From positions 1-35,975 of the forward strand of contig JACPYI010000002.1 in assembly GCA_016196115.1 (NCBI GenBank): DNA of 35,975 nucleotides, read 5' to 3'. Every line of letters starts with the position of its first letter. Positions within the stretch are counted from its first letter, which is position 1. The position numbers and the translations under genes are program-made. Below are positions 8,123 through 28,811 of this stretch, in pieces. Under the pieces are notes generated by a model, which was not told the origin of the DNA, made no database searches, and worked only from the letters and a program-made list of their open reading frames with translations. This stretch comes from Candidatus Sungiibacteriota bacterium (lineage in GTDB: Bacteria > Patescibacteriota > Minisyncoccia > Sungbacterales > HO2-52-23).

Positions 8123-8276
8123 TGCTCCACGGTTTGTCTGAAATCTTTTCTGTGTGGAACGCAGATTTACAATTCGTGAATCCCAAAAATAGCAGCTGGG
8201 AACTGGCTCCCGATTTGCATCGGGATCCTCAGTGCCGTTGCCAAATTTTTTGAAAATTTGGACGGCGTTGGGATTT

Positions 8277-8293
8277 TTCCAGCTGTTCCGATT
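8277..8293 (+). other. 5' arm of 16S precursor processing stem
   Basis: TTCCAGCTGTTCCGATT is a perfect reverse complement of AATCGGAACAGCTGGAA at 11482-11498. Confidence 0.85.
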
Positions 8294-8397
8294 AAGTATG
8301 GTCATCCCGACCTGTCGGGATGACCTTTATAGAGGATTTGATCCTGGTCCAGGATGAACGCTGGCGGCGTGGATAAGGCATGCAAGTCGTGCGGACA

Positions 8398-8887
8398 CAA
8401 TCGCCAACTTCTAATCGCTAATCTATAATGAAATTATGAAAATGCATTTCAGGGAATTTAAGGTCTATAGAGATGCAAAAACCTTAGTAGTTCAAACATT
8501 CCGTTTGACGAGAAAGTTTTCAAGAGAATTTTATTATTTGTCAGATCAGATAAACAGAAGTGCTTTGTCAATTGTCCTTAATATTGCCGAAGGGTCGGCT
8601 AAAGGGAGTGACAAGGACTTTAATCGATACATAAAAAATTCTCTTGGGTCAGCAACAGAACTATCTGCAGCTTTTGAAATCGCGGAAGACCTTAGGTTGA
8701 TCACCAAGGAGGAATACGATACCCTTGATGCTGAAATACAAGAAGTTATCAAACAATTGGGTGGTTTCTCGAAATATTTGCGGCGCAATGATTAATCAAT
8801 GATCGCTAATCGATAATAAAAAATTCAAGATTAGTGATTGTAGATTTCTGATTGCGTGAGCGATTGGAGATTATAAGTTGGTGATTG
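8398..8887 (+). other. Intervening sequence in the 16S V1/h6 region
   Basis: Ends pair as a 13-bp stem: CAATCGCCAACTT (8398-8410) / AAGTTGGTGATTG (8875-8887), one G-U; encloses ORF 8436-8795. Confidence 0.85.
8436..8795 (+). CDS. Four-helix-bundle (S23/IVS-encoded) protein inside the 16S IVS
   Basis: FREFKVYRDAKTLVVQTFRLT...LSDQINRSALSIVLNIAEGSAKGSDKDFNRYIKNSLGSATEL: matches the four-helix-bundle family known from rRNA intervening sequences. Confidence 0.92.
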   Translation: MKMHFREFKVYRDAKTLVVQTFRLTRKFSREFYYLSDQINRSALSIVLNIAEGSAKGSDKDFNRYIKNSLGSATELSAAFEIAEDLRLITKEEYDTLDAEIQEVIKQLGGFSKYLRRND

Positions 8888-9246
8888 CGTTAGCGGCGAA
8901 CGAGTTAGTAACACCTTGGCACTTACCTCACAGACGGGCATAACTCCGCGAAAGCGGGGCTAATTCCCGATATTATCTCCGTCGCAAGACGGCGATGAAA
9001 GGCCGCAAGGCCACTGCGAGAGAGGCCTAGGTCCTATCAGGTAGTTGGCGGGGTAACGGCCCACCAAGCCGATGACGGGTAGGGGGCGTGAGAGCGCGAC
9101 CCCCAACGGCGGAATTGAGATACGGTCCGCACACCTACGGGTGGCAGCAGTCAAGAACATTCGACAATGGGCGAAAGCCTGATCGAGCGACGCCGCGTGC
9201 AGGAAGAAGGGTTTCGGCCTGTAAACTGCTTTTCACCGGGAACAAG

Positions 9247-9416
9247 TCCGGCCCTTTTTGGATTCTTGTGTATTGTGTCATCCTCGCGAAACTTGTCCTC
9301 GTGAAAACGGGGAGCGGGGATCCAGAAAAACTGGATTCCCGATCAAGTCTGGGGGAATGACAAGGAAGATAGTAACATACTTCTTTATTTTTGTCAAGAG
9401 TCCAAAAAGGGCCGGA
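9247..9416 (+). other. Second 16S intervening sequence/helix expansion (h17 region) containing a dispersed palindrome
   Basis: 16-bp perfect closing stem TCCGGCCCTTTTTGGA (9247-9262) / TCCAAAAAGGGCCGGA (9401-9416); interior 9275-9362 matches the family-1 repeat. Confidence 0.8.
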
Positions 9417-9888
9417 TTGAGCGTACCGGTGGAATAAGAGGTTGGTAACTACGTGCCAGCACCCGCGGTAATACGTAGACCTCAAGCGTTATCCGGATTT
9501 ATTGGGCGTAAAGGGTCTCGAACACCAAAGGCGAAGGCAAACTCCTGGCCATTACCTGACACTCATGAGACGAAAGCGTGGGCAGAAAAAAGGATTAGAT
9601 ACCCTTGTATTCCACGCCGTAAACGATGCACGCTCGTTGTTCCGAGTATCGACCCTCGGAGTGACTTAGCTTACGCGTTAAGCGTGCCGCCTGGGAAGTA
9701 CGAGCGCAAGCTTAAAACTCAAAGGAATAGACGGGGATTCGCACAAGCGGTGGACCATGTGGTTCAATTCGACGGCAACCGAGGAACCTCACCAGGGCTT
9801 GAAATGGCAGTGACATTCCGGGGAAACTTGGAACTTCTCACAAGGACGCTGTCACAGGTGATGCACGGCCCTCGTCAGTTCGTGATGT

Positions 9889-10712
9889 GATCCAAAAATT
9901 CGCATCCTCGCGGAGTAATCCGCGATGTAAAACTCGGCTCATATTGGTGAAGTCCCGCAATTTGTGGGATAATACCAAGGGAAGTTGGAAAATTATATGT
10001 CGGTTGTCTTTCGAGCCCGAAAAAATCAAGAATTGATTCTCACGAATCGCCAATTTGAAATTATCATTGGCTCTCTCTTGGGAGACGCGTACCTCAGTCC
10101 GCTCGGGAAAGTTCAGTTTGAACATAGTACCAAAGCGGAAGAATATCTGAAGTGGAAATTCCAAGAACTTGATGGAGCGCGATATAAAAAAATTGGATAT
10201 GTGGAAAGAACAGTAAGCGGAAATCTTACGTTTTCTTGCCGGTTTTGGACAAGACAATTCTTTCGGGCATTACGAAACGAAATCTATAACCCTCAAGGCA
10301 AAAAATATATTTCTTCAGGATGGCTTCAAAAAATTACTCCGCTCGCTTTGGCCGTCTGGTATATGGATGACGGCCACTATGAGAAAGCAAAAAAGAGATG
10401 CATTATTGCCACTGACGGTTTTAGCGATGACGACCGAGAAAAACTGCAAAAGTTTTTGAAGGATACATTTGATCTGAAGATTACGATCTGGAGTAATGGC
10501 AAGATAGCCATGACTCAATTGGAGACACTGAAATTCTTTAAGATCATCGATCCTTTTAGAATCGAGTGCATGGCATATAAATTTCCTAACCCCTTAACGA
10601 CTAATCCCGGAAGGGGATTGATGGTCCCGACAAGATCGGGATCATAAAACGCCGAGCTCCTTCAGTATTATATTGAAGGATGAAGGTATAGTCTGGGTCT
10701 GTAAAAAGACCG
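9889..10712 (+). other. Group I intron in 16S rRNA (near E. coli ~1078)
   Basis: Removal restores GTGATGT|GAATTGTTCCCTTAAG. P1: exon GATGT (9884-9888) with IGS GCATC (9902-9906), terminal U-G. P3 CTCGGC (9933-9938)/GCCGAG (10651-10656); P7 GACTA (10599-10603)/TAGTC (10689-10693); P8 CCTTCA/TGAAGG; P9 GGTC/GACC; last nt G. Confidence 0.88.
9997..10647 (+). CDS. LAGLIDADG homing endonuclease in the group I intron
   Basis: Two LAGLIDADG-like motifs: IIIGSLLGDAYL and PLALAVWYMDDG. An alternative TTG start lies at 9985. Confidence 0.92.
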   Translation: MSVVFRARKNQELILTNRQFEIIIGSLLGDAYLSPLGKVQFEHSTKAEEYLKWKFQELDGARYKKIGYVERTVSGNLTFSCRFWTRQFFRALRNEIYNPQGKKYISSGWLQKITPLALAVWYMDDGHYEKAKKRCIIATDGFSDDDREKLQKFLKDTFDLKITIWSNGKIAMTQLETLKFFKIIDPFRIECMAYKFPNPLTTNPGRGLMVPTRSGS

Positions 10713-11481
10713 GAATTGTTCCCTTAAGTGGGGTAACGAACGCAACCCCCGTTGCATGTTATATGTGTCATGCGAGACTGCCTTCGTATAGAAGGAGGAA
10801 GGAGGGGATGACGCGAGGTCAGCGTGTCCCTTTGATGCCCTGGGCTACACACGTGGTACAATGGCGCGTACAATGGGTCGCCAAGTCGCGAGACGGAGCT
10901 AATCCCATCAAAACGCGCCCCAGTTCAGATTGGAGTCTGCAACTCGACTCCATGAAGCCGGAATCGCTAGTAAACGCAAATCAGCTACGTTGCGTTGAAT
11001 ACGTTCTCGAATCTTGTACTCACCGCCCGTCACGTTAAGGGAGCCGGGAGTGCCCGAAAGTCCGGATTCGTCCGGAATTACGGTAAGCTCGGTAACATGA
11101 ACGAAGTCGTAACAAGGCATCCGTAGCGGAAGCTGTGGATGGAACATTTCCTACTAGGGAATTTATAGAAGCGAAATACGCATGCTCGGATGGGATATAT
11201 CGCGCGGTCCTTTTCGGAACTCGGGATATGTCTTGAGCACTGCCGCTTCTCCCTAAGGTCGTTTCCCGACTCGTCGGGATATAGTGTTGGTCTTGCCCTC
11301 CTACGCTCTATGAGCTTCGGAAGGGTCTTCTTTCGTTAAAGCTTTGGAGACGTTTCTTCTCCTATTGTATTGGGAGGACTCGTCCTCCGAAGCCTTGGCG
11401 AAGGAGGAGAGCTTTAAATTAAGACCCTGCGGTTCCGTCAGTGAACGGAACGCCCTCCGACGCGCAAGCTTTGGAGGGTAC

Positions 11482-11498
11482 AATCGGAACAGCTGGAA
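11482..11498 (+). other. 3' arm of 16S precursor processing stem
   Basis: Perfect 17-bp reverse complement of 8277-8293. Confidence 0.85.
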
Positions 11499-11520
11499 GA
11501 AGACAATTTATTTTTCTTGC

Positions 11521-11588: not shown

Positions 11589-11660
11589 GGGCGACTAGCT
11601 CAGTGGTAGAGCGCTTCACTGATAATGAAGAGGTCGGAAGTTCGATCCTTCCGTCGCCCA
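11589..11660 (+). tRNA. tRNA-Ile (GAT)
   Basis: Cloverleaf GGGCGAC..GTCGCCC; anticodon loop CTGATAA, GAT at 11621-11623; no encoded CCA. Confidence 0.95.
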
Positions 11661-11661
11661 C

Positions 11662-12837: not shown

Positions 12838-12928
12838 AGTGAGAAGGCAAGGTCTTGCCTGACGGTGCGATTTATTGTATTCATACATCAAGAGCAGTTT
12901 TTTGATAACTAAAGAAAGGACGCGCATC

Positions 12929-14202
12929 ATGACTATGCGTAAACATAAAAGGTATGGACAAACCGGACCCTATCGTTCCGAGGCGTTTGGACTCGACACC
13001 GATCTCGAAGAATCTCCCTACGAGCTGGAAGAGAATTTTGATAATCTGATCGCCCGTTATTTTGGGGATGTGCGCCAGTTTGATTTGCTCAACCGTGCCC
13101 AAGAGCATGCCCTGTGGAGTCGCATTGAGAGTGCGCAAAAGCGCGAACGCCGCATCTTGTGTCAAACGCCAATGGCTATTTCCGTTCTGGACGATTTTTT
13201 GGATGAAGTGCGGCATAGCGAACCACCAAAAGGTACAAGAGAAAAGCATCGTGCCTTATTTGCCCGGGAAAAAGAACAATGCATCCGTTTTGTTCAAAGC
13301 ATATCCTGCGAGGTTGACGAGATCGCGCATAGCCTGGGGGCAGCACGTTCCAGATCGGAATTGCGCGGTATATCGCGACGGTTGTTTAAGACGTGGGAAA
13401 CGCTATTGGCGTATCCTGAAGTATTTGAGAACATTCGCCAGAAGCTGCAGGAGGAGTATGACAAGAAGCAAAACGACGTTGCCCTGTCGGGAATATATCG
13501 CAGATGGCAGAAAGCCGGTCATAGACTCGAAGGGATGAAAGCCGGCATGATCCGCGCCAACCTGCGCCTGGTCATTCATATGGCGAATCGCTATCGGGGC
13601 AGCGGCGTACCGTTTCTTGACCTGATCCAAGAAGGCAATATTGGCCTGATGCGCGCGCTCGAAAAATTCGAGCCGAGCCGCGGGCTCAAATTTGTTACCT
13701 ACGCGCATTGGTGGGTGCATCAAGCAATCACTCGTGCCATTTCCCAGCAATACCGCACCGTCCGGCTCCCCAACCACATCGGTGAGCGGAAAAACAAACT
13801 GCGCGCTGCAGTGGATCGTCTCTTGAGCCAGTACGGTCGGCATCCCACCACGGAAGAATTGAGCCGCGCATTGCGTTGGACACTCGTGAAAGTGGAAGAA
13901 TTGCAAGCGGCGGTGCAGCCTGTTGTTCGTCTTCAGCAACCGTCGGACAGCGACGACGGGAATTTGATGGACACCCTGGAAGGCAGTGCCTGGCCGACTG
14001 CCTCGCCAGTTTGACGGAGCGCGAAGCCTTTATCTTGCGCCTGCGCTATGGTCTGGAGTCAGAACAACCCCACACACTGCAAGAAATCGCCGATATGCTT
14101 GAGATAAGTCGTGAGCGTGTCCGCCAGATCGAGCGGCAAGCATTTGAGAAGCTGCGCCAACCGCATCGCAGTGCCATGCTGGCCGATTTTGTCAGTCCCT
14201 AA
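12929..14202 (+). pseudogene. Sigma-70 (RpoD-like) gene with a frameshift between sigma3 and sigma4 regions
   Basis: Frame A (to 14014): NLRLVIHMANRYRGSGVPFLDLIQEGNIGLMRALEKFEPSRGLKFVTYAHWWVHQAI. Frame B (to 14202): LTEREAFILRLRYGL...TLQEIADMLEISRERVRQIERQAFEKLR. SD-like AAGAAAGGA upstream. Confidence 0.8.
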
Positions 14203-14288: not shown

Positions 14289-16181
14289 ATGCAATCGTCC
14301 GAGATCCGGCAAAAATTTTTTGAGTTTTTCGAGGCGCGGGGGCATAGGGTAGTTCCTTCGTCTTCGCTTATACCCGACGACCCATCGGTGCTTTTGACGA
14401 CCGCGGGTATGCAGCAATTTAAGCCCTACTATACGGGCGATGCGGATTCGATGACCAGTGTGCATCCTATGCTTGGTAAACCGCTTGGTTCAAAAAATGC
14501 CGTATCAATTCAAAAATCGTTCCGTACATCGGACATTGATGAAGTGGGAGATGAGCGGCATCTTACATTTTTTGAAATGATGGGTAACTTCAGTTTCGGC
14601 GGATATTTCAAAGAAGGGGCGATTAAATTGGCACATGAATTTTTGACGTCAAAAGAATGGATGGATTTAGAAATTTCTTATGTTACTATTTTTCAAGGAA
14701 AAGAAGATATCGGGGTTCCAAAAGACGAAGAGTCGAAAGAAGATATCGGGGTTCCAAAAGACGAAGAGTCGAAAAGAATATGGCAGTCGCTCGGCATCGC
14801 CGACATTCGGGAAGAAGGCATGGAAGACGTATTCTGGGGTCCGACGGGATCGTCAGGGCCGTGCGGGCCGACCACGGAAATTTATTGCAAAAACGGCGCC
14901 GGGCAGGATATCGAGGTCTGGAATATCGTATTCAACGAATTTTTTTTCAACGGCTCGCGCGAGGAATTGCTCGCAGGCAACTCCGGAAAAAAACTGGAAC
15001 GGCTTAAAACCCCGGGTGTGGATACGGGCATGGGCTTGGAGCGGCTGGTGATGGTCGTACAGAAAACAACGACGATTTTTGAGACGGATTTATTCGCACC
15101 GATTCATAGTTTTATGCGAGGTAATGCGAGTCGTCAAGAAGAGATGCGTATTATCGCAGATCATGTAAGAGCCGTAACATTTTTGCTTGCCGATGGAGTT
15201 CGACCGTCGAATAAAGAGAGAGGGTATATTTTAAGACGATTGATCAGGCGCGCGATAATACAGTGGCAACAGTTAGGGTTTTCTCGTCATGGTCTCTCCA
15301 ATTTGATTAAGGGGATGATGGACCAATATGGAGTTTTCTATGAGGAGACTAAACATAATCAAGGAACAGTCGATCATGAATTTTATGTCGAAGCCGAGAA
15401 GTTTGATCGAACATTGAAAACTGGGGCAAAAGAATTTTTTGATAGATTTCCGGATATGAAAATCAAAGAGGGTGCGTTCGGCTTTCACCAGATAAAAAGA
15501 ATTTCCGGAGATGATGCATTTTATTTTCATCAAAGTTATGGCTTGACTCTTGATGTGATAAAGGACTTTGCAAAAAAAGGAGGGCACATCGTTGAGGTAG
15601 ACGAAAAGGAATTTGAGAGTGCATTGGAAAGACATCGGGAAATTTCCCGCGCCGGATCGCAGTCGAAATTCGGCGGGCATGGGTTGTATATGAAGACCGG
15701 AGAGGTTACGATCCGCGACGAATCCGAGGTGGAGAAGGTGACGCGGCTGCACACGGCCACTCACCTGATGCACGCGGCATTGCGGGCGGTGCTCGGGCCC
15801 GAGGTGCGGCAGGACGGGTCCGACATTACGGTGGAGCGCACACGGTTTGATTTTCGTTTTGGCAGGAAAGTGACGCCGGATGAATTGAAAAAAGTTGAGG
15901 ATTGGGTGAATGAAGCGGTTGAAAAAGACCTGACCGTGAAATGGGAAGAGATGTCATACGAGGAAGCCATCGCCCGGGGTGCGCTTGGATTTTTTCATGA
16001 AAAATATCCAGTGCGCGTGAAAGTGTACACCATGTTTGATCCAGACACCAACGAGGTATATTCAAAAGAATTGTGCGGCGGCCCGCATGTCGCGCATACC
16101 AACGAGGTCGGCCGTTTTCGCATTGTGAAAGAAGAGTCATCCTCCGCGGGCGTGCGCCGCATCCGCGGAGTGGTGGAATAG
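14289..16181 (+). CDS. alaS: Alanyl-tRNA synthetase, short form ending after the editing/SAD domain
   Basis: IRQKFFEFFEARGHRVVPSSSLIPDDPSVLLTTAGMQQFKPYY; TATHLMHAALRAVLG; KELCGGPHVAHTNEVGRFRIVKEESSSAGVRRIRGVVE*. Confidence 0.95.
   Translation: MQSSEIRQKFFEFFEARGHRVVPSSSLIPDDPSVLLTTAGMQQFKPYYTGDADSMTSVHPMLGKPLGSKNAVSIQKSFRTSDIDEVGDERHLTFFEMMGNFSFGGYFKEGAIKLAHEFLTSKEWMDLEISYVTIFQGKEDIGVPKDEESKEDIGVPKDEESKRIWQSLGIADIREEGMEDVFWGPTGSSGPCGPTTEIYCKNGAGQDIEVWNIVFNEFFFNGSREELLAGNSGKKLERLKTPGVDTGMGLERLVMVVQKTTTIFETDLFAPIHSFMRGNASRQEEMRIIADHVRAVTFLLADGVRPSNKERGYILRRLIRRAIIQWQQLGFSRHGLSNLIKGMMDQYGVFYEETKHNQGTVDHEFYVEAEKFDRTLKTGAKEFFDRFPDMKIKEGAFGFHQIKRISGDDAFYFHQSYGLTLDVIKDFAKKGGHIVEVDEKEFESALERHREISRAGSQSKFGGHGLYMKTGEVTIRDESEVEKVTRLHTATHLMHAALRAVLGPEVRQDGSDITVERTRFDFRFGRKVTPDELKKVEDWVNEAVEKDLTVKWEEMSYEEAIARGALGFFHEKYPVRVKVYTMFDPDTNEVYSKELCGGPHVAHTNEVGRFRIVKEESSSAGVRRIRGVVE
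14702..14775 (+). repeat. 36-bp tandem duplication within alaS
   Basis: AAGAAGATATCGGGGTTCCAAAAGACGAAGAGTCGA x2, giving KEDIGVPKDEES x2. Confidence 0.9.
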
Positions 16182-28738: not shown

Positions 28739-28811
28739 TGGACCTGACGGGATTTGCACCCGTTACGCCGCTTGCGAAGGGCGGAATTTTACTACATAAA
28801 ACTACAGGCCC
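28739..28811 (-). tRNA. Atypical tRNA/tRNA-like RNA; anticodon most likely TCG (Arg) but uncertain
   Basis: Minus strand GGGCCTG TA ...CCGCC CTTCGCA AGCGG CGTA ACGGG TGCAAAT CCCGT CAGGTCC A (73 nt). Good acceptor and T arms; A/T-only D stem, no GG in D-loop, C-A mismatch closing the anticodon stem. Confidence 0.55.

Follow-up and report, generated by a model that had tools for sequence, protein, structure and literature searches.

The question raised by this locus is whether a 16S rRNA gene that departs so widely from that of E. coli still encodes a working rRNA, and whether it really stands apart from its relatives. The window, i.e., the whole stretch of 35,975 nucleotides that was analysed, corresponds to bases 1–35975 of a 101-kb contig (C22), in a genome assembly of 842 kb and 39 contigs that is nominally 100% complete. 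The first-pass annotation had placed a 16S rRNA gene at 8326–11154, which is borne out by a match of 1003.9 bits to the RF00177 covariance model (gathering threshold 50), spanning model positions 1–1533. The model match itself begins only at 8815, owing to a 496-nt insert in h6 that displaces the model; the true 5′ end, found by aligning the sequence directly with the consensus of the model, lies at about 8326 and begins TTTATAGAGGATTTGATCC.

8326–11154, + strand: 16S rRNA gene, mature ends placed by homology (RF00177; 5′ end from the consensus alignment, 3′ end from cmscan)

A second SSU gene, such as the canonical rrs whose presence had been raised as a counter-indication, was searched for across the 842-kb assembly and not found, and the window 16S is the sole copy there. 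CPR rRNA genes are mostly single-copy (PMC11270868). The locus probably holds the 16S rRNA gene, in single copy, of a Patescibacterium of the Sungbacteria family, with a gap due to assembly deletion, with inserts that are processed and with an rRNA that works. It is an ordinary, functional CPR gene, whose inserts are of known kinds and whose one gap is suspicious.

Evidence for function comes from base pairing. The window was projected on the RF00177 consensus structure through the cmscan alignments, the 5′ end being aligned by hand. In these alignments, which favour structure though they are mostly ungapped, 359 of the 381 pairs scored (94.2%) are standard. Among the 145 pairs that depart from the RF00177 consensus, pairing persists in 128 and is lost in 17. 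Where both sides have changed, pairing is maintained in 109 of 118 cases, compared with a permutation mean of 45.7 and a maximum of 64 in 10,000; all 15 doubly changed pairs of the conserved class (both consensus letters capital) are compensated. Compensation is far beyond chance, and this count of compensated versus uncompensated changes sustains the earlier proposal that the unusual bases are mutually compensated. Every motif and coordinate then listed is present in the sequence, including the h45, 530-loop and h44-base changes as they had been written, and the following states were confirmed.

8334–8338 and 8346–8350, + strand: h1, GGATT and GGTCC
9737–9739 and 11010–11012, + strand: h28 neck, ATT and AAT, with A9729 and T11020
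10721–10723 and 10730–10732, + strand: h36, CCC and GGG

A same-genus genome (G001) provides a closer view, since it shares the last 378 nt of the 16S with 96.8% identity (12 differences). Both two-sided pair changes between the two sequences are compensated, and none of the scored pairs is disrupted. This same-genus 16S differs by paired changes, and therefore the 16S of the lineage works. With paired changes mostly compensated and a second SSU absent from the assembly, the gene does not have the features of an rRNA pseudogene. The surroundings of the gene are also informative, as the 16S is enclosed by two complementary arms lying 3.2 kb apart and is followed by a tRNA gene.

8274–8293, + strand: 5′ arm of the 16S precursor processing stem (TTTTTCCAGCTGTTCCGATT), inverted repeat of 20 nt, 95% complementary to 11482–11501
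11482–11501, + strand: 3′ arm of the processing stem, inverted repeat with 8274–8293
11589–11661, + strand: tRNA-Ile(GAT), downstream of the 16S, in the same order in G001

The core of this stem, CGGAACAGCTG, is also found 3′ of the 16S in G001. The flanking stem presumably has a role in processing: the 16S precursor would be transcribed and closed by it, and the gene is probably a transcribed, processed and working rRNA. The compensation, the flanking stem, the sole SSU and the differences from G001 without broken pairs all agree with the view of the first-pass annotation that structural selection, rather than decay, has shaped this rRNA. It would serve in a normal small subunit, its odd bases being lineage states held paired by selection, as the compensation shows. 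Elsewhere in the window, a weak tRNA-like match on the − strand (28739–28811; RF00005, 43.1 bits) is not called by ARAGORN.

The same annotation had described the gene as extremely divergent and on a very long branch, a description that does not hold. Over shared positions, the exons are 89.8% identical to those of G005, whose 923-kb genome is a single contig and comes from the family of the window organism; the identity is 89.4% with G009 and 89.1% with G010. L104 (Candidatus Sungbacteria bacterium RIFCSPLOWO2_01_FULL_54_21) has the 16S statistics, 3′ end and h21–h23 segment of G009. In a maximum-likelihood tree of 46 Patescibacteria 16S rows, from which the h18 columns were left out, the window pairs with G010 (SH-aLRT 94), within a clade of 9 rows at family/order level (99), and thus groups within the Sungbacteria family; its end branch of 0.041 is among the shortest of the tree. 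The extreme divergence was only apparent, because E. coli was the comparison.

Relatives carrying the same pairs were also looked for. Relatives not chosen by pattern commonly show the h1, h28, h36 and h45 states, which are usual in the family or in CPR. The h36 CCC/GGG state occurs in at least 118 CPR contigs, a set selected by that very pattern, and agrees in 16–21 of 22 unselected relatives; these two counts rule out the h36 flip as a rare signature. The window shares with the Sungbacteria 16S of G009/L104, G005 and G010 the 89–90% identity, the CCC/GGG h36 and the GGAACA... tail, and both G005 and G010 carry inserts at its h6 and h17 sites. In contrast to all of them, it has a 132-nt gap, a G507–C524 pair in h18 and a group I intron where these relatives have none.

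Two of the inserts are intervening sequences closed by long stems.

8395–8891, + strand: h6 intervening sequence, 496-nt insert at model position 64, with an imperfect closing stem of about 29 bp (from the fold)
8436–8795, + strand: 23S_rRNA_IVP (PF05635) ORF within the h6 insert (E=5e-29)
9247–9416, + strand: hairpin intervening sequence that replaces the tip of h17, without ORF (inverted repeat 9247–9268/9395–9416)

The h6 insert is a 23S_rRNA_IVP intervening sequence, with its PF05635 ORF in a stem-closed rRNA insert. It resembles the bacterial 23S intervening sequences that encode PF05635 proteins, by both its long closing stem and its ORF, but it lies in h6 of the 16S and not in the 23S. 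The h17 hairpin, of 170 nt, has a folding energy of −89.1 kcal/mol and a z score of −10.4. By analogy with comparable intervening sequences, an RNase III-like enzyme may excise the h6 and h17 inserts or nick their long stems, and cleavage at these sites would leave the 16S fragmented yet base-paired. In CPR, 48% of the 16S genes carry inserts, and both 23S_rRNA_IVP ORFs and group I introns that encode LAGLIDADG enzymes are found in them (Tsurumaki et al. 2024, PMC11270868); intervening sequences of the PF05635 type were already known in the 16S of CPR, and the inserts of the window do not differ in kind from these CPR rRNA insertion sequences (PMC11270868). The 16S of G001 carries a different ORF-bearing insert, near position 1390 (L164, 254–1104).

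The third insert interrupts h36.

9889–10712, + strand: group I intron of 824 nt in h36 (P1, P10, omega-G, fold)
9985–10647, + strand: intron-borne ORF for a LAGLIDADG_2 homing endonuclease (PF03161, E=8.6e-32)
Predicted exon junction of the spliced 16S: CGTGATGT joined to GAATTGTTCCC

Its group I features are a P1 helix (GAUGU 9884–9888 / GCAUC 9902–9906) with a U.G pair at the 5′ splice site, a P10 helix (AAUUC 9897–9901 / GAAUU 10713–10717) and a 3′ terminal omega-G at 10712. Because the RF00028 model gives only 17.2 bits on the intron (E 0.089, below the gathering threshold of 50), the intron is classed as group I from P1/P10 and from the S-element-like GAAGGTATAGTC. P1, P10 and the terminal G fix both splice sites, and the length of the resulting exon join equals that of the intron-less G005. 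The h36 intron would self-splice, and the LAGLIDADG enzyme may account for its spread.

Once the gene is set among its relatives, only the 530-loop G507–C524 pair and one h44 pair, which is U-A in the window versus C-G in same-genus G001, are locally unusual.

9437–9501, + strand: h18 / 530 loop, with G507–C524 replacing C507–G524; 65 nt identical to Liptonbacteria L042

G507–C524 was otherwise found in seven Liptonbacteria-like loci, whereas the family members carry C507–G524. In the 530 pseudoknot, U505 opposite C526 is a non-standard pair that also occurs in the family, for example in L011 and L015. Outside the h18 block, the window 16S resembles Sungbacteria. The block could therefore be an assembly chimera, or a segment acquired horizontally from a Liptonbacteria-like donor, which is a somewhat doubtful proposal, compatible with the main reading of the gene. 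The exact identity with L042 and the distribution of G507–C524 speak for it, as does the position of the block, which ends 18 nt 5′ of the deletion junction described below. However, the overlap with L042 at the 5′ edge of h18 is of about 6 nt, too short for a k-mer join, and h18 stems vary fast within the family, each stem state being common elsewhere, so that convergence is possible.

The 3′ end of the rRNA shows a different kind of departure, which is shared by all the family members seen.

11142–11154, + strand: 16S 3′ tail GGAACAUUUCCUA..., without the CCUCC anti-Shine-Dalgarno core (cmscan tail alignment)

The CCUCC anti-SD, which is usual in bacterial SSU rRNA but not defining for it, is absent from the window tail GGAACAUUUCC and from every family member seen, and this absence across the family makes it a clade trait. 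In 67 ORFs of the window's genome, taking the first ATG as the start, GGAGG precedes 1.5% of starts versus 0.9% of internal ATGs, and no clear altered SD motif complementary to the 3′ tail was found in these ORFs under the same start definition. In G035 too, GGAGG is little more frequent upstream of predicted starts than of internal ATGs, and in both genomes A/T-rich motifs resembling TATAA or TAATA are enriched directly upstream of starts (first ATG only). This start-site pattern suggests SD-independent or leaderless initiation. Most Parcubacteria loci seen are also devoid of CCUCC (GGAUCAAUUAAACU, GGAAUAAUUCAAUUUG and others); the CCUCC-less loci include L011, L014, L016, L022, L164, L197, L198 and many CPR loci, and Uhrbacteria, Magasanikbacteria and Woesebacteria retain GGAUCACCUCC. 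Era, the protein that binds GAUCACCUCC, is lost in most CPR (PMC10582724). A literature search of limited reach found no report of anti-SD loss in Parcubacteria.

The one strange feature is the gap in the central domain. Like the three inserts, the processing stem and the CCUCC-less tail, it does not appear in the first-pass annotation.

9519–9520, + strand: deletion junction; 132 nt missing, made up of h21, h22 (5′ strand) and the whole of h23, 690 loop included (comparison with CPR loci)

The junction is flanked by GGCGTAAAGGGTCTC and GAACACCAAAGGCGAAGGC. The interval measures 14 nt in the window, whereas almost every one of about 110 other CPR loci has 145–147 nt there, or more in a few that carry inserts (the value obtained for L145 being a spurious motif hit), and the deletion was found in none of these other loci. 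As assembled, the sequence lacks a complete central domain with h23 and its 690 loop, although the living gene may differ; the 3′ strand of h22 is kept, without its partner. The missing piece was found nowhere in the genome, either with a 26-nt pattern allowing up to 3 mismatches or with a covariance model of h21–h23, both of which were positive for the controls G005 and G009. A DNA search of the genome with the G005 segment, run without a control, gave no match. The genome retains the genes of uS15 and bS18, two ribosomal proteins that contact h20–h23.

An assembly deletion, not a real loss, is the most likely origin of the gap, because about 110 loci keep the region, uS15 and bS18 are retained, and anomalies are present nearby in a sigma gene and in alaS. 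The sigma-70-type gene (12875–14202), 3 kb downstream, has its regions 2-3 and its region 4 in different frames, and residues are missing between them relative to relatives. This is apparently a deletion or frameshift, real or assembly-made, and the gene may be a decaying paralogue instead of a sign of misassembly. In alaS, an exact 36-nt tandem duplication (14699–14770) repeats 12 residues. The two anomalies suggest assembly faults in the stretch. Against an assembly deletion, a stray contig might have kept the piece after a mere local error, and there is none in the assembly; the junction has no obvious microhomology and no assembly mechanism is visible. The contig of same-genus G001 ends without the 5′ part of the 16S present in the window and gives no reading on the gap.

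Two other explanations take the deletion as real. In the first, the window would hold a recent pseudogene or partly deleted copy, an intact 16S existing unassembled. The removal of the 690 loop and of one h22 strand would fit such a copy, as would the second 23S fragment of the bin, but the rest of the gene shows no decay, rRNA genes are usually single-copy in CPR (PMC11270868) and the second 23S is itself suspect. The bin has a Sungbacteria-like 23S on contig C20, about 85% identical to family members. The other 23S, on the 3.3-kb contig C17 (L032), downstream of a membrane-helix ORF, is about 78% identical to the first, and it matches other Paceibacteria families best, G119 among several, rather than Sungbacteria. 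C17 is thus probably a contaminant, and its 23S was rejected as the sign of a second operon on account of this identity and these matches. The pseudogene explanation is therefore improbable.

In the second explanation, the ribosome would truly lack h21, half of h22 and h23 with its 690 loop, or would receive the piece in trans, from a separate gene that escaped assembly. The window 16S is the only SSU in the assembly, its remainder is under strong structural constraint and the missing part is nowhere else, all of which would be expected from such a reduced or split 16S. Yet all relatives keep the region, at 145–147 nt or longer, the 3′ strand of h22 is retained partnerless and uS15 and bS18 are kept; to our knowledge, the 690 loop is near-universal. 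A reduced or split 16S is accordingly a very remote prospect. If true, the gap would break a rule on the ribosome platform, revealing a small subunit with a reduced or split central domain.

The locus illustrates how a CPR 16S may seem alien beside E. coli and yet be ordinary within its own clade. Inserts such as those described here can conceal such 16S genes from amplicon surveys. The loss of CCUCC across the order and in many other Parcubacteria bears on translation initiation in such cells.
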